NCBI GenBank assembly: GCA_001717545.1
Contig: CP017039.1
Span: 1,178,001-1,242,000, forward strand
DNA: 64,000 bases
Direction: 5' to 3'
Origin: Anaerolineaceae bacterium oral taxon 439
GTDB lineage: Bacteria; Chloroflexota; Anaerolineae; Anaerolineales; Anaerolineaceae
Part shown: piece by piece, positions 49,344 to 64,000 of the stretch
How positions within the stretch are numbered: position 1 is the stretch's first letter
Layout of the letters: each line of letters opens with the position of its first letter
The notes under the pieces: model-generated
Seen by the model: only the letters and a program-made list of their open reading frames with translations
Told to the model about the DNA's origin: nothing
The model's database searches: none
Position numbers and translations under genes: made by a program

Positions 49344-50873
49344 ATGAATTCTTTGATTGAGATAGACCGTCTGGTCAAGATTTTTCCGCCGAACGTGACG
49401 GCGCTTGACGACGTCAGCGTTGATTTCCGCGAGGGCGAGATTCACGCGCTTGTGGGCGAGAACGGCGCGGGAAAATCGACTTTGATGAAAATTCTGTACG
49501 GAATGTACAGCGCCGATGGAGGCGCTGTTCGGTATCGGGGAGAGCCGGTTCGATTCGCCGAGCCGGGCGACGCGATCCGCGCGGGAATCGGCATGGTCCA
49601 TCAGGAGATCCTGCTGGTCAACGAGTATACGGTCTGGGAAAACGTCGTATTGGGGCAGGAGCCGACAGGGCTTTTCGGGCGGATCGACCGGAAGCGGGCG
49701 CGCGAAATCGTCCGGGCGAAAATCCATGAGTTCGGATTTAACCTGGACGCGGATACGCGCGTATCCGAGCTGTCGGTCGCCGCGCGTCAGAAGGTTGAAA
49801 TCCTGAAGCTGTTGTATCGCGACGTTTCGTTCCTGATTTTAGACGAGCCGACCGCGGTCCTGACGCCGCAGGAAATTCCGCAGCTTTTCGACGAGCTTCG
49901 CCGGCTCCGGGGCAACGGGCATACGATTGCGTTCATTTCGCATCACCTTGACGAAGTTCTGGCGCTGAGCGATCGGATTACCGTCCTCCGAAAGGGAAAG
50001 AAGATCGCGACGATCGCGACGGAGGAGACGAACGAGTCGCGGTTGGCGGAGATGATGGTCGGGAGGGAGGTTTTATTCAAGCCGATCAAGGACGACATCC
50101 CGGCGGGCGAGGTCGTTTTTGAATTGTCCGGCGTCGATTTAAAAGCTGAGAACGGGAAAGAAGTCCTCTCCGATCTTTCGATTCAGGTTCGCGCGAGCGA
50201 AGTCGTCGGGATCGCCGGCGTCGAAGGCAACGGGCAGCTCGAATTGGTTCAGGTTCTGATGGGACTGCGCAAGCCGGAACGGGGATCGCTCCGGATCGAA
50301 GGGCGCGAGCTTCTGGACGCCGCGATTCTGGACCGTCGGCGGTACATGTCGTTCGTTTCGCAGGACCGTTCGCGCATGGGCGGATGCTTACCGGCGTCGA
50401 TCGAGGAGAATATGCTGATGACGCATCACAGGCTCAGCGGCGCGTTCACGAGCGCGGGCGGGTTCCTGATCGACGGTCGGCGCGCCGCGGTGTTTACGGA
50501 GACTGTCTGCGCTCGGTTCGATGTCGCCTACGCCTCGATCCAGTCGCCGTTCCGTTCGCTCTCGGGCGGCAATCAGCAGAAGGTCATTTTGGGGCGGGAG
50601 CTGTCGTTGGATACGCCGTTCGTATTACTGGACCAGCCGACGCGCGGACTGGACGTCGGTTCGATCGAATACGTGCATCATCAGATTCTGGAGCTGAGCC
50701 ATGCGAATCGGGCGATCCTGATCCTGTCGGCGGATTTAGAGGAGTTATTCCGGATTACCGATCGGATCCTCGTTCTTCATCGCGGTCGTATCGTCGCTGA
50801 TCTGGAGACGGAGCGGACGGATATCGTGGAGGTCGGCGCATGGATGCTGGAAGGGGCGGGGCTGGATGCGTAG
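49344..50873 (+). CDS. Nucleoside ABC transporter ATPase, double domain
   Basis: A 509-residue chain with two ABC domains, like RbsA and the BMP-transporter ATPases. The first has Walker A GENGAGKS (38-45), a degenerate signature region ([12 protein letters not shown]) and Walker [12 protein letters not shown]. The second has a relaxed P-loop GVEGNGQLE and signature [22 protein letters not shown] precedes the ATG by four to five bases. The gene overlaps the first permease by eight bases. The remaining 200 bases of the preceding gap show no gene. Confidence 0.93.
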
Positions 50874-51906
50874 GAGTTTATTCGTTAATTTTATCGGAAT
50901 TGCGTTCGCGTTCCTGATCTGCGGCGTGGTCATGCAGGTCCAGGGGTATCCCGCGATCGAAAGCTACGCGGCTCTTTTCAACCAGTCGGTCGGGAGTTCG
51001 TTCGCTTTTTTGACGGTCCTGAAAAACTCGATCCCGCTGGTTCTGACCGGGTTGTCGGCGTCGGTTGCTTTTTCGTCTGGTCCGGTCAACCTCGGTCAGC
51101 CGGGACAGTTTCTGATTGGCGCGTTGTTCGCGACGGTCGGCGGCCTGTACGTTGAGCTTCCAGCGTTTTTGATGCTCCCGTTTCTTCTGGCGTTGGCGAT
51201 GCTCGGCGGAGCGGTCTGGTCGTTCGTTGCCGCGCTGATGAAGCAGCTGTTTGAGATGGACGAGTATATTACGACGCTGATGTTGAACATGATCGCCGAT
51301 TTTTTTACTTACTGGGCGATTTCAGGTCCGTTCTTTGAAACGGGCGCGAACTTTCCTCAGACGCCGCGGATTGCCGGAAGCGGCTGGATGCCGACCGTGG
51401 GAAAGTTCAGCACCGGCGTGATCGTCATGCTGCTGGCGTTTATGGTCGTCTGGTTCCTGTATTATCGGACGACGGCGGGGTATGAATGGCGGATGACGGG
51501 GCAGAATCCAACTTTCGCGCGGCTGGGCGGGGTCCCGACGAAGAAAAATTACCTGACGGTCATGCTCCTGACTGGCGCGTTGGCGGGGCTGGCCGGCGGT
51601 CTGGTCGTCATGACCGGTCCGCATCGTTTTATCAAGGGTCTGGGCGCGAATTACGCCTGGGACGGGATTATGGTATCGATGGTCGCGAATAATCATCTTG
51701 TCGCGACGTTGGCATACGGCCTGTTTTTCTCGATTCTGGAAACCGGCTCGCTGGGGATGGAGCTGTTCACGAAGGTCCCGAACGAAATGACGACCGTTCT
51801 TCAGGCGATCATCGTACTCGTCGTCATGGCAGGGCGCGGTTCGATCGAGGTCTTTATCCGGAAAGGGATGACGCGGAGAAAATTGAAAGCGAGGGCGGAA
51901 GGATGA
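50866..51906 (+). CDS. Nucleoside ABC transporter permease, first subunit
   Basis: A 346-residue permease of the BPD_transp_2 type with about nine hydrophobic helices. [21 protein letters not shown] near residue 65 is the hallmark region that in family members reads G.s...afraGlfNiG..GQ. The cytoplasmic loop [17 protein letters not shown] contacts the ATPase. It overlaps the ATPase gene by eight bases and the second permease by four. It forms a heterodimeric channel with that subunit. Confidence 0.92.
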
Positions 51907-52796
51907 CGGTTCTGGTCGGGTTATTGAATGGGATGATTTCCGCCGCGACGCCGCTGCTGCTTTCGTCGCTGGGAGGGGCGCTGACGTATTATGCTGGAAT
52001 TTTTAATATCGCGATGGAAGGGATGATGCTGAGCGGGGCTTTTTTCGCGGTCCTCGGCTCGTATACTTTCGGCTCCTGGGGAGCCGGGTTGATTTGCGGG
52101 GTTGCAGGCGCGATGGTGATCGCGTTAATCTTTATCCTGTTCTCGATCGTGTTGAAGGTCGACGAATTTGTGACCGGCGTCGGATTGAATATGTTCTCGC
52201 TGGGGGTGACGACATACTTGCTCAGGCAGATTTTCAAGGTTAAGGGCGCGTTTACCGATCCCGGGATTATCTCGGTCCCGAACGTGCGGATTCCGCTCGT
52301 CGAGGGGATCCCGTTCGTGGGGCGGATTGTCAGCGGTCAGAACCTGATCGTCTGGCTGGCGATCGCCGCAACGCTGGTCTGCCAATATGCCGTTTTTCGG
52401 ACGCGATTCGGGCTGCGGCTGCGCGCGGCGGGGTACAATCGAGACTGCCTGGATACGAGCGGCGTTTCGGCGAATCGGATTCGCGTTGCGTCGCTGATCT
52501 GGTGCGCTGTGCTTTGCGGACTGGCGGGGGCGTACCTGTCGTTGGGGTATGTGACGCTGTTCAGTGAAAATATGTCCGCGGGACGCGGATGGATTTCGTT
52601 AGCGGCGGTCATCCTCGTATCGGGGAACCCGCTTGGAATCGCGCTGGTCTCGCTGCTGTTTGGGTTGGCGGACGGGCTGGGTCTCTTTTTACAGCGATCG
52701 ATCCCGTCGCAGTTTACGTCGATGCTTCCATATATTGCGACGTTGGTCGCGCTATTCGTGTATTCGACGCGGAGAAGGAAGGAGGTTCGGAATTGA
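51903..52796 (+). CDS. Nucleoside ABC transporter permease, second subunit
   Basis: A 297-residue BPD_transp_2 permease with eight hydrophobic helices. The N-terminal core contains [18 protein letters not shown], the second-subunit version of the afraGlfNig.EG pattern. Loop [17 protein letters not shown] is the ATPase contact. GGISAG-like glycine runs are fewer than usual. Its stop shares a base with the next gene's ATG, so the ADP-ribosylglycohydrolase is likely translated from the same message. Confidence 0.92.
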
Positions 52797-54190
52797 TGAA
52801 GCAGGCATGGCAATTAGAGCGGGAGCTTCGCGACGCCGCGATTCCCGTCGACCGGCGCAAGCAGGCGTCGGACTGGTATACGTCGGAGACAGTGTTCCCG
52901 CATGGCGACGAGCTGATCCGGAAGTTCTGGTCATCGCAGGTTCCCGGCTCGTTCGCGCCGGAAATCCCGTATCTGGAAATGGTCCAGGCATGGAGTAATC
53001 AGGGCTACGACGTCAGCGCGGCGGAGGAGCTCCTTCCGCATGGTATCGAACTCAGCCGGGCGATCGGCAAGCCGGAGGATATGGACCGGCTGCGCGTCCT
53101 GACGGCGGAGCTGCTGCGGCGGTTGAATAACGCGCCGCTGATTGGGACGCACCCGTACTATTCATATACGCATCCGATGACCTGGGACGAGGTTCGGGCG
53201 GCGATGCCGATTGCTGAAAAAGGATGCGATTCGGTTCACGAGCCGAACGCGCAGGGCGACAGCGAACGGATTTATCAGGGCTGGCTCGGGCAGCTCAGCG
53301 GCGGGGCGTTCGGGACGGCGATCGAGGGGTATACCGGGACGCGGATCGCCGAGGTTTACGGCGAGATTACCGACTATGTCGCGGAGCCGGAAACGGTGAA
53401 CGACGACGTTGTTTATGAATTGGTCCTGCTCGACGCGGTAGAGAAGTTTGGGCGCGCCGTCACGGCGGGCCAGATCGCGGCGGAATGGATCCGGTCGCTC
53501 CGGTTCGGCTGGTCGGCGGAAGGGATCGCGATCCGCAATTTGAACATGGGAATTTATCCGCCTGAATCCGGAAAGTTTTTCAACTATTATTCAGATTGGA
53601 TCGGCGTGCAGATGAGGGCGATGGTTTGCGGAATGCTGGCTCCGGGTCAGCCGATCGAGGCGGCGCGGCTGGCTTTTACCGACGGTATCGTTTCGCATTC
53701 GAATAACGGCGTTTACGGCGGGATCGCGGCGGCGGTCATGACGTCGCTGGCGTTTGAACTGGACGATCCGCGCGCGGTTCTGACCGAGACGCTGAATTAT
53801 CTTCCGGCGCAGAGCGAATACGCGGCGAAGTACCGCCGTGTCCTGACCGTTCTCGCGAAGCATCCGGAAAGCGAGGCGCTGAAGCTGATCGCGAGTTATT
53901 TCGAGCGATATAACTGGATCCACGCGTACCCGAATATGGCGGCGGATTTATTCGCGCTCTGGTACGGGGAAGGCGATTTCACCCGTTCGATGTCGCTGCT
54001 GGCGAAGGCTGGGAATGACGTTGACTGCAACGCCGGGCTGGTCGGGAACGTTTTGGGCGTGATGAATGGTGTCCCGGAAAAATGGGCGGCGCCGATCGGC
54101 GATATTCTGGAAACGTATCTTCCGGGACGTGAAAGGAATTCGATCCGCGAATTGGCGCTGCGGACGGCGCGGCTGAGCGGGATTTTATGA
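52796..54190 (+). CDS. ADP-ribosylglycohydrolase family protein
   Basis: A 464-residue protein whose C-terminal 320 residues follow the all-helical ADP-ribosylglycohydrolase fold: [19 protein letters not shown], then [14 protein letters not shown] (in place of the usual TDDT metal motif) and [20 protein letters not shown]. The family cleaves N- or O-glycosidic ADP-ribose bonds with Mg2+. The first 140 residues precede the usual start of the domain and hold no recognised module. AAGGAGG lies 11 bases before the ATG; a TTG at 52793 is an alternative start. Location as the last gene of a nucleoside importer suggests it splits an imported nucleoside or NAD-derived sugar. That is inference. Confidence 0.82.
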
Positions 54191-56552: not shown

Positions 56553-57761
56553 TCACTTTCCGAACGGGATCTCGGCGTAAACGACTTCCTCCCGCTGACG
56601 GTAGATCAGCCGGACCGATTCCGTTTCTTCGGACACGGCGATCGTTTGAACGTCGTAGCGATCGTCATCCGGAAATGGCTGGCGCAACCGTTCAGCGCCG
56701 GTCCCGGCGTCGTAGACGCGGACGACGATCGCCGAAGCGAGATCGTTCAGGTTTTCCCGGACGGCCGTTGCGAGGTATTTCCCGTTCGCGGACAGCGCCA
56801 TGTTCCGGTCCTCCATGAACTCCCGCAGCGGGATTTTCGAGACCGCGTCCGTTTCGGCGTTCCAGACGTATAACATTTTCGCGGGGAGACTTTGAAGATC
56901 GTCCGGGTCGTCCGGGATCGGCTCCGGCGGCGAAATCAGCGCGGCGGGGGACGTGACCGGCGTGTGGTCGCGGTACGGCTGGACGGCCGAAGCGTTTTCG
57001 TCGATCTCCGCGAATTCTTCCGTGTCCCGTATCGTTATCTCCTCTCCGTCCGCGCTCATCATCCCGTAAATGGCGTGCGTCGTATGGTCGGCGTCCTCCG
57101 GGACGTACTGGCTTCCTGTGAAGAAGATTGTTTCTCCGTTCCGGATCAGGTTGAAGCTGTTGATCGAGAAGGTCCCGGGCGTCAGGTCGCGCGTCATTTC
57201 GAAGATCATCGTTTCGTCCCCTGTATCTAAATTTCTTCGATAAAGGTTCCATGAGTCCGATTTATAAAAGAGATCGGCGCCGTTTCGCGCCAGTCCGAAC
57301 AGGATCGTTGTCGGAATGTCGCAGATTTCGTTCAGGTCGACGTCCCGGATCAGCTTCAGATTATCGTCATATTCGTAGAGCGCGATTCTGGTCTCGATGA
57401 AGCTTTCCCGGACTTTTTCGACGAACCAGCCGAACCCCGTTTCAAGCTCCTGAACGCGGTCCGATCGGAGGACCATCTCCGGATCGTTCAGCGATTCCGG
57501 AAACGGCGCTTCGCCGATTAGTTCCAGCGGGTCGAGCCCGAGCAGCGTCAGCCGGTCGCTCAGGATCAGCAGCCGGTCGCCCGACAAGAAGCTGAAGCTG
57601 GCGCGAGTCGCGGGCGACGCTTCTTCAGGGACGAATTCGTTCAGGGACTGCACGCGGATCGCCGGAGCGCTTTCGGCGGCGGAGGCGGGGCATGGCGGGA
57701 TGACGCCCGCCGCGAGGACGAGCGTCATCATCATTCTTATCAGCGTTTTAAATTTTTTCAT
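56553..57761 (-). CDS. Secreted beta-propeller-like paralogue 3
   Basis: A 402-residue exported protein, last of three tandem paralogues. The signal peptide (residues 1-29) ends at ASA. The shared core is FLSGDRLLILSDRLTLLGLD near residue 55, a DDNLKLIRDVDLNEI strand pair, SINSFNLIRNGETIFFTGSQ in the middle and ALSANGKYLATAV near the end. Repeated blocks of about 50 residues with Gly-Lys/Asn turns fit a beta-propeller, but no WD or Kelch signature is present. Function unknown. It starts 15 bases after paralogue 2 ends. Confidence 0.75.
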   Translation of the reverse strand: MKKFKTLIRMMMTLVLAAGVIPPCPASAAESAPAIRVQSLNEFVPEEASPATRASFSFLSGDRLLILSDRLTLLGLDPLELIGEAPFPESLNDPEMVLRSDRVQELETGFGWFVEKVRESFIETRIALYEYDDNLKLIRDVDLNEICDIPTTILFGLARNGADLFYKSDSWNLYRRNLDTGDETMIFEMTRDLTPGTFSINSFNLIRNGETIFFTGSQYVPEDADHTTHAIYGMMSADGEEITIRDTEEFAEIDENASAVQPYRDHTPVTSPAALISPPEPIPDDPDDLQSLPAKMLYVWNAETDAVSKIPLREFMEDRNMALSANGKYLATAVRENLNDLASAIVVRVYDAGTGAERLRQPFPDDDRYDVQTIAVSEETESVRLIYRQREEVVYAEIPFGK

Positions 57762-57776
57762 GGCTGCCTGATTGGG

Positions 57777-59051
57777 TTATTCGATCGGGATCTCGACATA
57801 GGAATAAGCCAGCTTATCCAGGAGTACCGCGCGGATCAGCTTATCCGACTCGGAGACGCTGATCTCGGGTACAAAGCCTGCCGTAAGGCCCGAATAGTTT
57901 TTCTCCATGAGGAGTTCGCCGTTCGACGTGTCGTAGAGCCGGACGGTTAAGGATGTGACCTCGGTCATCGGATCGTCGGCCGCTGCCGTAGCCAGGTATT
58001 TCCCGTTTTCTGAGAGCGCGGCCTTATGGTCTTCCATGCTGATCCGCAGCGGGATTTCGGTAATATCGCCCGTTTCGACGTTCCAGGCGTAAAAGCTCTT
58101 CACCGGCGGGGGCGTAAAGACGTAGTTTTCCGGATCGTCGAACCAGGTCGGTTTCGGATCGTTCGGGGTCAGCAGCATGATCGGCGACGACTGCGGGACG
58201 TTCTGCTCTCCGACGCCTACCTGATAAAATTCGTACGGGTCCTGAAGCGTCGTTGGATCCAGAATTGTCAGGTCGCTTCCGTCCGTGGACATCGATCCGT
58301 AAGCGCAAATCGTATCTCCGACCTCGCCGGTTATATCTAACTTTCCTCCGACGAAATAAAGTCTTTTCCCGCCGCGCAGCAGCCGCAGATCGGAGATGAC
58401 ATGGAATTCCGAGTCCGGCGATCGATCTGTCTGATAGATCAGGCGGTCCGAATCCGGATCGAGCGGAATCTTCCCCGCCAGAAGTTTTTCACCTTTGTCT
58501 TCCGGCGAATAAGCTACGTAATACACCTTTGACCCGTCGGGATCCGGCGCGATATTTCCGAGTCCAAAGCCAAAGGCGGACGGAAGCGCTTCGCTCAGGT
58601 TCGCTTCCTGAACGAGATTCAGATCGTTATCATATTGAAAGTAGAAAGATACCGGGCGCGTTTCGCCGCCTGCTCGCGGCGTCATATCCACCAGCCAGGC
58701 AAACCCGCTGTTGAGCGGCTGAACGCGGGCGAACAGCGCGTATTCGTCGGAAAGCTTTTCGGATATCGATTCCGGCATTTCGGCTTCCGCGGCCGCTTTC
58801 ATCGTTTTCAGGTCGACGATCGTCAGCTGGTCATGGATCACCAGCAGCCGGCCTCCGGACAGGAACGTGAACGAGAGTGGATTTCCTTCAGGAGAAATCG
58901 TCTCAGGCGTAAATTCGGCTAAGCTCCGGGTCAGGGCCTCGTCCGGATCGGCTTGGCTTTGAATCGGGAGCACGGTCAGGCCGCAAATCAGTGCAAGCAG
59001 TCCCGCGAATCCGAATACGATCCGTCCGAACCAGAGTGCATGTTTTTTCAT
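57777..59051 (-). CDS. Secreted beta-propeller-like paralogue 2
   Basis: A 424-residue exported protein. The signal peptide covers about residues 1-35 (a hydrophobic stretch GLLALICGLTVLP, then a likely cut after QSQA). It shares with its neighbours FLSGGRLLVIHDQLTIVDLKTMK near residue 65, DNDLNLVQEANLSEAL, RLLRGGKRLYFVGG and ALSENGKYLATAAADD. A PPPVKSFYAWNVETGDITEIPL strand pair corresponds to the YVWNAETDAVSKIPL part of paralogue 3. The overall pattern again suggests a propeller. It starts 24 bases after paralogue 1, so all three form one operon. Confidence 0.75.
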   Translation of the reverse strand: MKKHALWFGRIVFGFAGLLALICGLTVLPIQSQADPDEALTRSLAEFTPETISPEGNPLSFTFLSGGRLLVIHDQLTIVDLKTMKAAAEAEMPESISEKLSDEYALFARVQPLNSGFAWLVDMTPRAGGETRPVSFYFQYDNDLNLVQEANLSEALPSAFGFGLGNIAPDPDGSKVYYVAYSPEDKGEKLLAGKIPLDPDSDRLIYQTDRSPDSEFHVISDLRLLRGGKRLYFVGGKLDITGEVGDTICAYGSMSTDGSDLTILDPTTLQDPYEFYQVGVGEQNVPQSSPIMLLTPNDPKPTWFDDPENYVFTPPPVKSFYAWNVETGDITEIPLRISMEDHKAALSENGKYLATAAADDPMTEVTSLTVRLYDTSNGELLMEKNYSGLTAGFVPEISVSESDKLIRAVLLDKLAYSYVEIPIE

Positions 59052-59075
59052 TTTGTCGTTCCTTTTCTGATGATC

Positions 59076-60290
59076 TTATTTTTCGATCGGGATCCGGACG
59101 AGGCGGACGGCCTGGCCGTCCTGATACAGGACGGAGATCAGCCCGTCTTCTTCGCTGATGCCGATGGCAGCGTTCGTGCATTCGCTCAGCGCCGGGAATT
59201 CGTAGGTCGCGAGGAGCGAGCCTTTCGCGGCGCCGTAAAGCCGGGGCACGAGCGCGAAGGTCCCGTCGTCGCGGCTTTCGCAGACGGCCGTCGCGAGGTA
59301 CTTCCCGTTTTCGGACAGCTTCGCCCGTTCTTCTTCCGTCGGGGCCTGAAGCGGGATTTCGACGACGTGCTTCGCCGCGACGTCCAGCGCATAAACGGTT
59401 TTGATCATTTTTGTCTCGCTGTCATATTCTCCTGTAAAATATGGAACGATGAGCGCGATGGGGGACGTCTGCGGCGTATGAAGATGGAGCGGGCTGTACG
59501 CGTCTGTTATGATCTCCACATTGAAGTCCGGCGCGTCGGTCAGAACGCGGTTTTCCCCGTCTGGGGACATGGAACCGTATACGCGGACGGTATTGATATG
59601 GCTTCCGCCTTCTTCAACCGATAAGAATTTATCCCCGGAAAACAGTACGGTTTTACCATTATCGATCAGGCGGAGCGATCCTATTGAATTGAGATCCATA
59701 TCGAAGCCCATCTTTGTTTCGAGCAGGATTTTTTCATCGCTGCTGTCCAGATTTATTCGGCGCATCAATGAATGTTCAACTGTGTAGATTTCGGAGCCAT
59801 CTCGTGAAATATCCAGATAAACCATGTCTGGAGACGGCATATAATCGTTCAGATTGACTTCCCGAATGACGTTCAATTGGTTGTCAAACTGGTAATAGGT
59901 TCCTTTCAAATGCGGTTCGGCCGGGGTCGCTATGGAAACGATCCAGGCGAAACCGTTTTCGAGCGCTTCAACCCGATCGAATCGGATGAGTTTTTCGCTG
60001 TCGAGCGACGGTGCGGAGTCCGGCAGGGGCGCTTCGGCGATCCGCTTCATCGCGTTCAGGTCGATCAGGTTCAGCCGGTCGGTGACCGCGAAGAGGCGGT
60101 TCCCGGGAAGGAATTCGTAGACGAGCGGATCCTGAACGTCACGCGCCGGGAGGATTTCGGACAGGTCCTCAATCGGGATCTCGTCGACCCGGTAGAGCTG
60201 GTTGGGCTCCTGCGCGTGAGCGCCAACGGCGCTCGCGCAGATCAGCGCGAGCATGAGGATAAAAAGCTTGAGTTTCTTAGATCGGTTCAT
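59076..60290 (-). CDS. Secreted beta-propeller-like paralogue 1
   Basis: A 404-residue exported protein and first of the three. A strong AAGGAGG lies seven bases before the ATG. The signal peptide ends at AHAQ (about residue 27). Shared blocks are FLPGNRLFAVTDRLNLIDLNAMK (59-81), QFDNQLNVIREVNLNDYM, RLIDNGKTVLFSGD, TVYALDVAAKHVVEIPL and LSENGKYLATAV. The AT-rich 130 bases upstream contain a likely promoter and a nine-base direct repeat CGATTCTTA at 60313 and 60359. No catalytic motif is apparent; surface display or sensing of a polymer is conceivable. Confidence 0.76.
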   Translation of the reverse strand: MNRSKKLKLFILMLALICASAVGAHAQEPNQLYRVDEIPIEDLSEILPARDVQDPLVYEFLPGNRLFAVTDRLNLIDLNAMKRIAEAPLPDSAPSLDSEKLIRFDRVEALENGFAWIVSIATPAEPHLKGTYYQFDNQLNVIREVNLNDYMPSPDMVYLDISRDGSEIYTVEHSLMRRINLDSSDEKILLETKMGFDMDLNSIGSLRLIDNGKTVLFSGDKFLSVEEGGSHINTVRVYGSMSPDGENRVLTDAPDFNVEIITDAYSPLHLHTPQTSPIALIVPYFTGEYDSETKMIKTVYALDVAAKHVVEIPLQAPTEEERAKLSENGKYLATAVCESRDDGTFALVPRLYGAAKGSLLATYEFPALSECTNAAIGISEEDGLISVLYQDGQAVRLVRIPIEK

Positions 60291-60425: not shown

Positions 60426-61349
60426 TCAGACGAAAATCTGGTTAATATCGCCGATCGCGTAGGACGGCGGCGTCCCGACCAGCCCGACGAGCATGTTCCG
60501 GCCGGTCATTTCGTCGACGAGGATTTCCGGATGGAGGCGGAAATTGACGATTTCGCCGGTCGTGCGGACGTGCATGCGCGGTCCGGTGCAGTAGTGGCGT
60601 TGGTCTCCGATCAGGATATGCGTCCGGTCGAGATAGGAGATCGGGATGTCCTTTTTGATCATCTCGTTGACCTGATGTTCCAGATCGAGGATATTGATCG
60701 CGCGTTTGTCCATGTAGCTGAGGATAAAGCCGTGACGGACGTCGGAATGCTCGAACGACCCGATCCCGTAACCGAGGAGGCAGAATTCGCAAAGGTCTTC
60801 GGCGGTATGGGCCATGCGCCGGTAGATGACCGACTTGGAGACGATTTTCTGGAGGTCGCGCGGGTCCGGCCCGAACATGGTCGGGCGCGTGATAATAATT
60901 TCTTCGCCGACGCCGACGAGAAGATGCGCGTTGCGCTTGATTGCCGGGTAAAGAAGGTCGAAATGCTCAACGATGACCCGTTTCCCCATCGCGGTCGCGT
61001 CGTTGATCGCCTGCACGATATCGGTCATTTGGGTAAACGCCGATTCGAAGCGGATATCGATATGATAGGTATGCGCGGAGAAAAAGCTCTGATCGTGGAG
61101 CTGAAGCAGGGGCAGGGGGCGGACGTTTACGCCTTCGTCGTCGTTCGTCATCTCCAATCCAGGGAACATCCCGCGGATCAGGACGCTTTTCCCGGATCCG
61201 GATTCGCCGACGAACCCGATCAGCGAGTCGAACGGGCTCATGTACAGCTGGGCGATCTGGTTGCCGACGTCGGCCATGCGCGGGTTCCCGCGCGGCGCGA
61301 GGTAAACGCTGAACAGGTGATTTTTCTGCATTCGAGCTGAATAGCTCAT
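60426..61349 (-). CDS. P-loop protein with C-terminal ThrRS/AlaRS-like second additional domain
   Basis: A 307-residue protein with two parts. The N-terminal half has a Walker A GESGSGKS at residues 48-55 and a kinase- or ATPase-like fold with a VIVEHFDLLYPA strand near residue 126. The C-terminal half has the second-additional-domain signature of threonyl- and alanyl-tRNA synthetases: YCTGPRMHVRTTGEIVNF with Cys254 and His260 (compare CRGPHVPNTG in ThrRS), and AHTAEDL at 180-186, where the second His of the HxxxH motif is replaced. Proteins with this name are annotated in Firmicutes without known function. It is the last gene of the methylaspartate operon. AAGGAG lies upstream of the ATG. 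Confidence 0.82.
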   Translation of the reverse strand: MSYSARMQKNHLFSVYLAPRGNPRMADVGNQIAQLYMSPFDSLIGFVGESGSGKSVLIRGMFPGLEMTNDDEGVNVRPLPLLQLHDQSFFSAHTYHIDIRFESAFTQMTDIVQAINDATAMGKRVIVEHFDLLYPAIKRNAHLLVGVGEEIIITRPTMFGPDPRDLQKIVSKSVIYRRMAHTAEDLCEFCLLGYGIGSFEHSDVRHGFILSYMDKRAINILDLEHQVNEMIKKDIPISYLDRTHILIGDQRHYCTGPRMHVRTTGEIVNFRLHPEILVDEMTGRNMLVGLVGTPPSYAIGDINQIFV

Positions 61350-61371
61350 CTTGACCGTCTCCTTCGTTGGC

Positions 61372-61707
61372 TCAGGCGGGCTGCGGCGAATCAGTATCGA
61401 GTTCGATACTGAGGAGCGGGGCGTGCTGCTGAGCCCCGTAGACGTCGGTTTCGCCTGTATCCCCGGAACAGGTCGGCCGCTGGATCGTGACCTTTATCGC
61501 TTTCGCCGGCGGGAATTCGACGATCCCGATTATTTTTTCCGGCGCGATTTTATACAGTTCGCAGATTTTTTCCGGCGAGAGGAGGCGATACTTCCGCGCC
61601 GTTTCGAAATCGTCCGCAGTTTTGAAAAGGACGTCGAGCGTCAGCTCGTATGGACCGGAGTTTTTCGAGCGGATAACGTCCGCCATTTCGGTAAGTTTTC
61701 GTTTCAT
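61372..61707 (-). CDS. DUF4387 family protein
   Basis: A 111-residue cytoplasmic protein. The signature MADVIRSKNSGPYELTLDVLF near the N-terminus is split over the first strand-helix, and the EKIIGIVEFPPAKAIKVTIQRP strand pair completes a compact domain; both match DUF4387. The last 25 residues are variable. In many genomes DUF4387 and DUF1446/AtuA proteins are adjacent or fused, so they probably form one enzyme. It starts 20 bases after the AtuA-like gene ends. Catalytic function unknown. Confidence 0.87.
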   Translation of the reverse strand: MKRKLTEMADVIRSKNSGPYELTLDVLFKTADDFETARKYRLLSPEKICELYKIAPEKIIGIVEFPPAKAIKVTIQRPTCSGDTGETDVYGAQQHAPLLSIELDTDSPQPA

Positions 61708-61727
61708 TCGGTTTTCCTTTCGCCGCG

Positions 61728-63089
61728 TTATAGTTCGTAGACGTCGATCCGGAACGGCGCGGCCGGGTCTTCGACTTCCAGCAGGTGATACACGCTGAAT
61801 TCATAGACCTTTCCCGCGTGAAAATCGCTCGGCGAGAACGGGAACGCGAGATTCCCGGCGGTCGCGATCCGTCCCGGGTAGCCGTAATGGAGCATGGTTG
61901 ATCGCGCGGTCGCGCAGACGGCGTCGGCGCGTTCCTGCGATTCGGCGACGGCTTCAATAATGATCCCCAGTTCATGCGCCGATTCGGTTCCGGGGGTGGG
62001 TTCGAGCGGCCCCATGACGCCGTCTTTTCCGTAAACGGTAAAATTCAGCCGATAGTCCCAGGGCTGATCTTTATAGATATCGGCGACGTTGGCGCGGACG
62101 GCGGCGATCGTCCGGTCGATTTCGCGGATCATGATCGGGTCGCGCGTCCCGGCGATCGAGACGGTTCGGAAGCCGACGGACTGCGCGCCTTCGAGCTTGA
62201 TCGTGTAGGGCTTGTCAGCGATGAACTTCGATCCGGAGACGCGGATTCTTCCGCTGCCCTGATCGGTGAAGGAACAGTCTCGTAAGTCAAGATGACCGCC
62301 GGGCCCGGGGAGAATATACGGGTTGGTTTTTTCGTAGAGCGTATGCGCCGCGACGGATACCGTCGTGCATTTCCGGACCGGGTTCAGCGCTTCGAGCTCG
62401 AACCAATCGTTCGTCAGCTTCCCGAACATGCAGTCCGACCCGCTTCCCGGCGAGGCGCAGATCGCGGCGCACTCAAGGATTTTCCCCAGATGCAGCGCGA
62501 GGGCGCGGTCGAAGCCGTCGCGGATCGGCAGCGCGGCGAAGACGCTCGGATCGTAGGAACGGCCGGCGAGGACAACGTCCGGAATCTCTTCAAAGGCGCG
62601 GATATACGGCTCGACGCCCATCTGGCCGACGATATGTTCCGAGTTGAGGACGCGTTCTTCGGTCAGCTCCGGCGCGCGGTCAAGCGGCCGGATTTTTCCT
62701 TTTTTGAGCGCGTCGGCGACAAAGCTTTTTTCAAATTCAGCGTGGATAACCGCGATTCTGAAATTCAGCGCTTCTTCGCGCGCGATTTCGCGGATAATCT
62801 CGAAACACCATGCCAGATGCGGCTCTGCGCCGCTTCCGCCGGCGGTTCCGACGACGACCGGGATTTTCCGTTCGACGCCGGCTTTGATCATGATTCTTAA
62901 GTCGCGTTTGACCGCCTGGCGGTCTGTAAACGAGATTCCGGACCCGAGATAGTACGGCCCCGGGTCGGTCGAACCGGCGTCCGCCGCGATCAGGTCGGGT
63001 CCTTTCGCGATCCCGGCTTCGAAGGAGGCGATCGGAAAGCCGTAACCGAGAATCGCGGTCGCGGACAGGATTTTAAATTCGGGTTTCAT
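61728..63089 (-). CDS. AtuA/DUF1446 family protein
   Basis: A 453-residue cytoplasmic protein. The N-terminal part has the family pattern: ILSATAILGYGFPIASFEAGI, then DLIAADAGSTDPGPYYLGSG and VVVGTAGGSGAEPHLAWCFEIIRE split over strands. The C-terminal half contains GSGSDCMFGKLTNDWFEL and GPGGHLDLRDCSF. The founding member AtuA belongs to acyclic terpene catabolism, where its exact chemistry is not settled. Here it lies 19 bases after methylaspartate ammonia-lyase and before DUF4387, so it more likely handles mesaconate or another C5 acid. Substrate is inference. Confidence 0.87.
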   Translation of the reverse strand: MKPEFKILSATAILGYGFPIASFEAGIAKGPDLIAADAGSTDPGPYYLGSGISFTDRQAVKRDLRIMIKAGVERKIPVVVGTAGGSGAEPHLAWCFEIIREIAREEALNFRIAVIHAEFEKSFVADALKKGKIRPLDRAPELTEERVLNSEHIVGQMGVEPYIRAFEEIPDVVLAGRSYDPSVFAALPIRDGFDRALALHLGKILECAAICASPGSGSDCMFGKLTNDWFELEALNPVRKCTTVSVAAHTLYEKTNPYILPGPGGHLDLRDCSFTDQGSGRIRVSGSKFIADKPYTIKLEGAQSVGFRTVSIAGTRDPIMIREIDRTIAAVRANVADIYKDQPWDYRLNFTVYGKDGVMGPLEPTPGTESAHELGIIIEAVAESQERADAVCATARSTMLHYGYPGRIATAGNLAFPFSPSDFHAGKVYEFSVYHLLEVEDPAAPFRIDVYEL

Positions 63090-63108: not shown

Positions 63109-64000
63109 CTATTTCCGGGCGGCGCGGTAAGCGAGGATCCGCTGCATTTCGTTATAAACGATCATGAAGCCTTCGTCAAATCCCATCCCCGGTTTGGCGA
63201 GCATCTGCGCCGGGGAGGTCGCCATGGCGACGTGGGCCGTAATCTGAGCGGAACGATCGGTCTCGTTGCAGCTTCCTCCCAGATACGCGCCGACGCCTTT
63301 TTCGCGGCAGTACAGGACGGCCTCGGCGGAATTATGCATGGAACCGAGATCGGGGGTCTTAATCTGGATCATGTGGCCGGCTTTGGCGTCGGCGAATTCG
63401 CGGACGTCTTCCAGCGTGTTGCACCATTCGTCGGCGACGAGTTCGACCGGGATACCGCGTTCGTCGAGCGCTGCGGTGAGCGCGGTCAGCGCGTCGCGCT
63501 GGGCGTCATGCGCGCCGTAATCGACCGGTCCTTCGATCCGGAGCCTGAACGGAGCGGCGAGTTCCGCGAGGGAGGCGAGGTAGCCGCTGATCGCCGCCCA
63601 GTCGTTTTTCGGGAAGATTTCGCCGATCGTCCCGTAAACGTCGATATGAAGGACAGGGTTATAGGACGGCGAGACGCGGAGCTCACGGATCCGGTTCGAG
63701 AGCCGCCGGACGTAGGCGGCGAGAATTTCGCCTTTTTCGCCCAGTTTTTCTTTAACGTTGTTGATCAGCGCATGCGGCAGGACGTCCGCCGACTTCAGGA
63801 TCATTTTGTCTGCGTTGAGGTCGCGTTCGTCGCCGGACTGCGCGAAGATGGGGATCGGCCTGTCGGAGACGGTCGTCCCGTATTCCCGCGCTAACGTTTC
63901 GCACATCAGCTCATGGTTGGATTTCGCGATCGCGTCGAGGACCGCCTGGCTCAGGCCGTAACGGATCGCGGTATGGAGCGGCTTCCCGTCAACGCGGATT
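63109..64000 (-). CDS. mal: Methylaspartate ammonia-lyase (C-terminal part, truncated by window edge)
   Basis: Converts L-threo-3-methylaspartate to mesaconate and ammonia, the second step of glutamate fermentation through adenosylcobalamin-dependent glutamate mutase. The frame is open to the right edge of the window, so about the first 110 residues are missing. The visible part is an enolase-superfamily barrel. The QIKTPDLGSMHNSAEAVLYC region carries the catalytic lysine, preceded by ADEWCNTLEDV with a metal-ligand acid and DYGAHD; the GAYLGGSCNETDRSAQ segment closes the site. The gene is the first visible gene of an operon that continues to 60426. Glutamate mutase genes would be expected beyond 64000. 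Confidence 0.96.
   Translation of the reverse strand, partial: IRVDGKPLHTAIRYGLSQAVLDAIAKSNHELMCETLAREYGTTVSDRPIPIFAQSGDERDLNADKMILKSADVLPHALINNVKEKLGEKGEILAAYVRRLSNRIRELRVSPSYNPVLHIDVYGTIGEIFPKNDWAAISGYLASLAELAAPFRLRIEGPVDYGAHDAQRDALTALTAALDERGIPVELVADEWCNTLEDVREFADAKAGHMIQIKTPDLGSMHNSAEAVLYCREKGVGAYLGGSCNETDRSAQITAHVAMATSPAQMLAKPGMGFDEGFMIVYNEMQRILAYRAARK

Follow-up and report, generated by a model that had tools for sequence, protein, structure and literature searches.

The t6A ATPase TsaE (YjeE, YdiB; Pfam PF02367) serves the actin-fold pair TsaB-TsaD. GlmL/MutL belongs to the reactivating proteins of B12 enzymes, a group of ATP-driven helpers of radical enzymes. A P-loop and a SAD domain occur in one chain in uridine-kinase-like proteins that carry a ThrRS-like TGS/SAD N-terminus, and none of these proteins was found in the literature search made here. 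In E. coli YjeE, the ATPase was reported to be lost in each of the mutants T43A, E108A, Y82A and W109A (PMC4330362). The zinc ligands of the trans-editing protein AlaX-S are His9, His13, Cys116 and His120 (PMC3680381), and the HxxxH and DxCRGPH motifs matter for editing by ThrRS (PMC4787780). In an AlaX-like appendage of the Plasmodium tryptophanyl-tRNA synthetase all four zinc ligands are replaced (PMC3680381).

A glmS-glmL-glmE-mal-mesaconase-cit gene set has been described for Clostridium tetanomorphum and other organisms (PMC4682846). Kronen and Berg (2015) also noted that in Enterobacteriaceae and Dictyoglomus mal is followed by a DUF1446 gene whose function is unknown, and the cluster descriptions in their text name no P-loop or SAD gene (PMC4682846). 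The literature search returned no paper joining methylaspartate ammonia-lyase (MAL) with alanyl-tRNA editing, and none joining methylaspartate mutase with AtuA.

Here a P-loop/SAD fusion protein, abbreviated PLS, is described from Anaerolineaceae bacterium oral taxon 439. The window, that is, the whole stretch of DNA that was analysed, is 64,000 nucleotides long. PLS is very likely to be dedicated to the methylaspartate pathway. A two-domain family outside Pfam and NCBIfam is now added to a textbook pathway, and a metabolic operon is shown to have recruited a SAD fold along with a TsaE-like ATPase.

The PLS gene, its operon and its family

PLS is the final gene of a methylaspartate-pathway operon, as determined by scanning the window together with the flanking stretch (Table 1). 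In order of transcription the operon encodes two class-I fumarase (mesaconase) subunits, a GntR regulator, GlmS (B12-binding), GlmL (MutL), GlmE, MAL, AtuA, a DUF4387 protein and PLS; the genes from the mesaconase subunits to glmE lie beyond the window end. The preliminary description had placed the gene in a glutamate-fermentation operon, and the mal and glm genes found by the scan bear this out. The scan for a B12 riboswitch covered 19 kb and showed none above the gathering score, the sole match being a tRNA.

Table 1. Coordinates of PLS, its domains and motifs, and the adjoining genes, given as positions in the window.
Feature	Position	Strand	Basis
PLS gene (TsaE-like/SAD fusion, 307 aa)	60426..61349	(-)	ATG-to-stop frame read directly; family alignment
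Probable ribosome-binding site AAGGAGA, purine-rich, 8 bases before PLS ATG	61358..61364	(-)	sequence read directly
TsaE/YjeE-like ATPase domain, residues ~11-161 of PLS	60867..61319	(-)	fold comparison, two models
Walker A GESGSGKS, residues 48-55	61185..61208	(-)	G48, G51, G53, K54, S55 invariant 37/37
D98, putative counterpart of the switch Asp of TsaE (PLS has YHIDIR, TsaE a YHFDLYR-like stretch)	61056..61058	(-)	invariant 37/37; by eye
E128, putative counterpart of E108 in E. coli YjeE	60966..60968	(-)	invariant 37/37; by eye
AlaX/AlaRS/ThrRS-type SAD domain, residues ~172-292 of PLS	60474..60836	(-)	fold and profile comparison
H181-TAE-D185, at HxxxH position	60795..60809	(-)	hhalign; H181 37/37, D185 36/37
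C254-TGPRM-H260, at CxxxH position with two-residue insertion	60570..60590	(-)	alignment; C254, R258 37/37, H260 36/37
DUF4387 protein, neighbour upstream of PLS	61372..61707	(-)	PF14330 E 1e-37
AtuA (DUF1446) protein	61728..63089	(-)	PF07287 E 4e-20
Methylaspartate ammonia-lyase (MAL), runs beyond window end	63109..64000	(-)	TIGR01502

The PLS frame is real, as 36 other full-length homologues align with the window protein. The position of the start codon is common to the nearest homologues, which are 70-72% identical. Read in frame, the Walker A motif is found where it had been described, at residues 48-55 (G48-E-S-G-S-G-K-S55); MAHTAEDL lies around H181-D185, CTGPRMHVRTTGEI runs from C254, and the C-terminal motif stretch is C254-TGPRMH260-VRTTGEI. 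The genome of the window carries a single copy of PLS.

No Pfam or NCBIfam family covers the protein, the only rows being sub-threshold and mostly to P-loop models, with TsaE at the top in Pfam. Homologues were found at 24 loci in a contig search (about 54-70% identity) and, among plasmid records, in Peptoclostridium acidaminophilum (55%) and Prevotella nigrescens (43%), where they are annotated 'hypothetical protein'; none was found among viral contigs. With respect to a defence role, PADLOC gave just two weak Walker-A rows with E about 0.05.

Conservation was evaluated on 37 full-length sequences, obtained from 39 matched loci by removing two fragments and one duplicate and adding the window sequence. 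Both domains are on one chain in all 37, and 57 positions are invariant. These include K54, S55, D98, R100, E128 and H129 in the ATPase part, and R177, M179, H181, A183, E184, D203, Y239, D241, H244, C254, G256, P257 and R258 in the SAD part. D185 and H260 are kept in 36 of the 37, the Prevotella protein having E and Q at these positions. The whole proteins are acidic, with a pI of 4.9-6.2 in the nine that were computed. Each of the two domains is of a known kind, while their fusion makes up a family that has no name so far.

The TsaE-like N-terminal half

Structure prediction had been called for in the preliminary description, and two AlphaFold models were made. The first, built from 21 sequences, had a pLDDT of 78.5 and a pTM of 0.74, the remaining four models ranging from 58 to 66. 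For the second a different family member was placed first among 25 sequences, and a pLDDT of 82.5 was obtained (remaining four, 57-74). The two agree that the P-loop half is TsaE-like and that the C-terminal half is a SAD domain. The top Foldseek rows for the PLS model were scaffolds that we take to be of AlaX origin, HI0065/YjeE, AlaRS and YdiB, with E values of 1e-4 to 2e-4. When the first model was compared with TsaE (YdiB) by VIA-align, the Z score was 10.1, with an rmsd of 3.0 over 124 residues. The second model gave Z 10.0, the two models together spanning 124-125 residues at an rmsd of 3.0-3.2. The next P-loop proteins in the fold list came near Z 7.

Against the Pfam TsaE model PLS scored 15.8 bits (17.7 in the whole-genome search), which is below the cut-off of 26.6 bits. 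When the N-terminal part was aligned by hhalign with 11 TsaE sequences, the score was 50.5, the maximum of the shuffled controls being 24.4. A single ABC half scored 45.8 over 15 columns, and five single TsaE sequences scored 29.8-46.0, four of them below the ABC half. Because the score of the TsaE profile hardly exceeds that of one ABC half, the TsaE assignment of PLS rests on fold. The sequence searches also gave weak rows to cytidylate kinase and to phosphoribulokinase/uridine kinase.

PLS resembles TsaE in its fold, its Walker A motif and the proposed positions of D98 and E128. By eye, S55 corresponds to T43 of YjeE and E128 to E108, so that the Walker A Thr/Ser and the catalytic Glu are present. 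It differs from TsaE in being fused to a SAD domain, in lying outside a t6A context and in having R100 and H129, both invariant, where YjeE has, again by eye, Y82 and W109. These two residues would suit a different partner.

The SAD-like C-terminal half

The C-terminal part of the 37 members was compared by hhalign with a reference set of 19 AlaRS and ThrRS editing domains from the bacterium's own phylum. The probability was 96.4 and the score 63.2, while the controls reached at most 24.6 (60 column-shuffled alignments), 13.0 (reversed alignment) and 13.1 (PLS N-terminal part). Together with the same two folds in both AlphaFold models, this upholds the P-loop and SAD fusion that had been proposed. 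The first model matched AlaX-M (9iuw) by VIA-align with Z 15.4 and an rmsd of 2.1 over 121 residues; for the second, the SAD Z scores were 13.9-14.2 (AlaRS/AlaX). The Pfam tRNA_SAD model (PF07973) had no match at E<=1 to the single PLS sequence. A profile search of PDB sequences also speaks against the SAD and TsaE assignments: AlaRS, ThrRS, AlaX and TsaE chains were absent among the 53 rows listed, although such an absence excludes nothing, and ABC transporters came first, the best rows being to ABCC5 (E 3e-4), whose best-matching stretch covers PLS residues 171-294. Since the Pfam and PDB-sequence searches gave no SAD match, the link between PLS and SAD domains is a remote one that rests on profile-profile and fold comparison.

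PLS shares with AlaX and with the AlaRS and ThrRS editing domains the fold (Z 14-15), HTAxxL, CxGP..HV..TGEI and the residues H181 and C254. In the full-length alignment the two His of AlaRS HTATH are paired with H181 and D185, in that order, and the Cys and His of CGGTH with C254 and H260, between which PLS has two extra residues. The HxxxH motif, described earlier as degenerate, can therefore be refined to HxxxD (36 of 37) or HxxxE (1 of 37), with C254 invariant; the place of CxxxH is taken by CxxxxxH (36 of 37) or a variant ending in Q. PLS differs from the editing proteins in these ligands, in the invariant Arg that accompanies the insertion, in the absence of a synthetase catalytic domain and in having its SAD domain behind an ATPase domain. 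A zinc hydrolase site is doubtful, because Asp replaces the second His of HxxxH and, in the Prevotella protein, two of the four ligand positions are occupied by E and Q. The invariance of H181, C254 and R258 suggests that the pocket is more than vestigial.

Some other proteins are related in design. In the uridine-kinase-like proteins the order of the two domains is the reverse of that in PLS and the P-loop family is a different one. GlmL/MutL-type helpers are analogous to PLS in function alone, no resemblance having appeared in the searches made. The Plasmodium tryptophanyl-tRNA synthetase is like PLS in having a SAD domain with altered ligands on an unusual partner (PMC3680381), whereas PLS keeps two ligands invariant, H260 in 36/37 and an Asp at the fourth position in 36/37.

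The possibility was considered that PLS lies here by chance and is simply the TsaE of the genome, or a free-standing AlaX of the usual kind. Although its fold is like that of each, this is hardly credible. A full TsaE is encoded separately in this genome (126.3 bits, as against 17.7 for PLS), which rules PLS out as its ordinary TsaE. PLS is likewise ruled out as an ordinary AlaX; the two SAD matches of the genome fall in other frames, ones that look like AlaRS and ThrRS, and the PLS domain pair is never split in the family.

Co-occurrence with methylaspartate ammonia-lyase

The distribution of PLS was determined in 291 evenly drawn genomes of the class Clostridia (the class of locus L005), including the carrier used as centre, with cut-offs of E 1e-10 for PLS and E 1e-30 for MAL. 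PLS was found in 10 genomes and MAL in 16. All 10 PLS carriers had MAL (9 of 9 without the centre), and none of the 275 MAL-negative genomes had PLS (Fisher p 8e-15, kinship ignored). Among 61 relatives, the genome of the window included, PLS was present in four (G000, G001, G007 and G008) and MAL was above the cut-off in exactly these; one more MAL-like match, in G045, was under it. The genomes of the 24 loci from the contig search had a MAL match in 23 cases, 21 of them above the cut-off. In the sole exception, G078, the contig ends inside glmE beside PLS. A search of 400 genomes of the bacterium's own phylum for PLS alone, at E 1e-5, returned one, the genome of the window itself.

The preliminary description had tied PLS to the methylaspartate pathway and would have given up the link if homologues proved to lie mostly in genomes without it. 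The opposite was found, with the lyase in 10 of 10 and 4 of 4 carriers; in the evenly drawn samples PLS occurred solely where the lyase was present. Since PLS is confined, among the sampled genomes, to those that encode the methylaspartate route, it probably serves this route as a dedicated helper. DUF4387 behaved otherwise: it was found in 21 of the same 291 genomes, 6 with both PLS and MAL and 15 with neither. PLS tracks the lyase, not DUF4387, and the latter 15 genomes rule it out as an accessory of AtuA-DUF4387.

PLS does not accompany every methylaspartate pathway. It was missing at E 1e-10 from 6 of the 16 MAL-positive Clostridia-class genomes, whose completeness is not given, and from 15 of the 17 plasmid-collection records with MAL, including two E. 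coli records of 4.9 Mb. PLS is therefore dispensable for the route.

Gene contexts

Contexts were tabulated with PLS and DUF4387 located by the Peptoclostridium and Prevotella reference sequences. They fall into two types, a cit type of 27 stretches (L002, L005-L027, L062, L063 and L065, with L064 omitted as a repeat of L005) and an AtuA type of 11 (L003, L004, L028, L031, L032 and L066-L071). In the cit type, citC lies immediately upstream of PLS in 18 of 27 stretches and was not detected beside it in the other 9. The citX gene is present in 13, in 11 of which it is downstream of the citC-PLS pair on the same strand; the remaining two have it past a hut gene set and on the other strand, respectively. 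The citDEF, mesaconase and glm genes are mostly on the strand opposite to PLS. In the AtuA type, AtuA and DUF4387 precede PLS, with a small intervening frame in one stretch (L095).

Five of the six PLS-less, MAL-positive Clostridia-class genomes have a glmS-glmL-glmE-mal-mesaconase-citE-citF cluster, with both citC and citX in two and citC in a third; in the sixth, mal is near a contig end. PLS is also absent from five MAL stretches of other phyla, those of Salmonella (AtuA-DUF4387-fumarase), of Gemmobacter, Ensifer and Sinorhizobium (CoA-transferase and CoA ester lyase) and of Halostagnicola, where mal has no pathway neighbours. In E. coli O157 the order is MAL-AtuA-DUF4387-FumD, and PLS is absent within the 49 kb read.

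A MAL tree was made from 29 of 34 wanted rows, those left out by the length, stop or hit filter being L014, L057, L081, L138 and L139, which include both enterobacterial rows. The PLS-positive rows require three label changes, at least two of them forced by well-supported branches; the tree has three long branches. In mirror-tree comparisons over a common set of 10 loci, PLS distances correlated with those of all cluster genes, among them GlmL (0.68), GlmE (0.67) and CitE (0.69), and with none in particular.

Discussion

Since PLS pairs with either downstream module, AtuA-DUF4387 or the citramalate-lyase genes, what its carriers have in common probably lies upstream of that step. Moreover, PLS goes with MAL rather than with the downstream module, and its likely target is therefore upstream, either 3-methylaspartate or the mutase making it. 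The reading favoured here, with a probability of roughly one in three, is that PLS is a lineage-specific, ATP-coupled quality-control accessory of the methylaspartate route that recognises 3-methylaspartate. The AlaX-like pocket would bind 3-methylaspartate or its ester, and in the editing loop the invariant Arg258, between the Cys and the His, would be a suitable contact for a second carboxylate. The pocket may hydrolyse or sequester a mis-made product, for example 3-methylaspartyl-tRNA, while ATP turnover in the TsaE-like domain would gate binding or release. In favour of quality control are the SAD fold and motif positions, with H181, A183, E184, C254, G256, P257 and R258 invariant, and the TsaE-like fold with invariant K54, S55, D98 and E128. 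The combination of H181, C254 and Arg258 in the ligand loop would be suited to recognising a dicarboxylic amino acid or an ester of one, and the conserved catalytic residues of the TsaE-like part suit a predicted ATPase that acts on a partner. The strict co-occurrence is with the very enzyme whose substrate is 3-methylaspartate, and PLS follows this lyase rather than DUF4387. It is rather doubtful that PLS is a proofreading ATPase, in which an AlaX-like pocket, reshaped with the invariant Arg, recognises non-protein 3-methylaspartate and is coupled to a TsaE-type ATPase. If it were, 3-methylaspartate would be kept out of protein or off tRNA in bacteria that make it as a fermentation intermediate.

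Several observations weigh against quality control. The altered ligands (Asp, and E and Q in Prevotella) make a zinc hydrolase doubtful, and the acidic proteins do not favour tRNA binding. The P-loop is left without explanation, because we know of no editing protein that needs ATP. The absence of PLS from lineages with the whole pathway speaks against an essential catalytic role of any kind and, to a lesser degree, against quality control, a partnership with GlmL and a sensor alike. In particular, the lack of PLS in 6/16 MAL-positive genomes of the Clostridia-class sample, and in the clusters read from E. coli, Salmonella, Gemmobacter, Ensifer and Sinorhizobium, opposes a general need for clearing of methylaspartyl-tRNA, or for mutase reactivation, by PLS.

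Nearly as likely as quality control, and equally tentative, is a role of PLS as partner of GlmL in mutase maintenance, in which the TsaE-like ATPase would drive or reset an actin-fold (ASKHA) reactivase and the SAD domain would be a substrate-sensing or docking module. The TsaE-like fold with its conserved ATPase residues is in keeping with this, given the actin-fold partners of TsaE itself. GlmL has sub-threshold matches to hydantoinase/oxoprolinase families, which we take to belong to the actin-like clan, and is probably an actin-fold protein too. Furthermore, glmL is present in all 18 PLS-positive stretches selected for comparison, and MutL/GlmL has been termed a reactivating chaperone (PMC4682846). 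However, GlmL occurs without PLS in the five Clostridia-class clusters, Salmonella and Ensifer, PLS adjoins AtuA-DUF4387 or cit genes rather than glmL, and the distance correlations do not single GlmL out. Ranked third, and rather unlikely, is a metabolite sensor or regulator whose SAD pocket would bind a pathway acid and whose ATP state would control another enzyme or the operon, with no chemistry at the SAD site. The partial loss of the editing ligands, two of them replaced in Prevotella, and the dispensability of PLS agree with such a role, but the invariance of H181, C254 and R258 does not; moreover, PLS matched no DNA-binding family and the operon already has a GntR regulator.

Less likely still is a small-molecule kinase or ligase, or a maturation factor of the citramalate-cleaving module. 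The same-strand order citC-PLS-citX of 11 of the 27 cit-type stretches, its place beside AtuA-DUF4387 in the other type and the weak kinase rows could be so explained. The maturation of citramalate lyase is weakened as an explanation because the PLS-less clusters carry citE-citF, and three of the five citC as well, one of these without citX. In addition, a third of the cit-type stretches have no citC beside PLS, the DUF4387 genomes that lack the lyase also lack PLS, and no kinase is prominent in the fold list, where TsaE stands at Z ~10 and the next P-loop proteins at ~7. PLS offers a testable member for the question, so far little explored, of how fermenters whose main intermediate is an amino-acid analogue protect translation or their radical mutase.

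Associated genes

AtuA-DUF4387 (61372-63089) fills the slot that citramalate-lyase genes, or a CoA-transferase and CoA ester lyase, occupy in other methylaspartate clusters. AtuA and cit genes were not found together in any methylaspartate stretch examined, several of which are short. AtuA-DUF4387 is a candidate for the citramalate step in the methylaspartate route; the fate of citramalate in E. coli O157 has been called unclear (PMC4682846). The AtuA-like (59%) and DUF4387-like (45%) genes of E. coli O157 (L057:46934-48618) are annotated 3-methylaspartate ammonia-lyase and acyl-CoA synthetase and are apparently mis-named; the mis-naming of an enterobacterial DUF1446 gene has been noted before (PMC4682846).

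On one Oscillospiraceae contig a hut set (histidine to glutamate) lies between PLS and citX (L019:4903-14501) and joins histidine breakdown to the methylaspartate route. Elsewhere in the window, positions 49344-54190 hold an ABC ATPase gene followed by two frames that are permease-like by eye and by a gene for an ADP-ribosylglycohydrolase-family protein. Three tandem genes at 56553-60290 (-) encode paralogues of 402, 424 and 404 aa, which matched no Pfam family; neighbours are 32-33% identical, and their starts are signal-peptide-like by eye.
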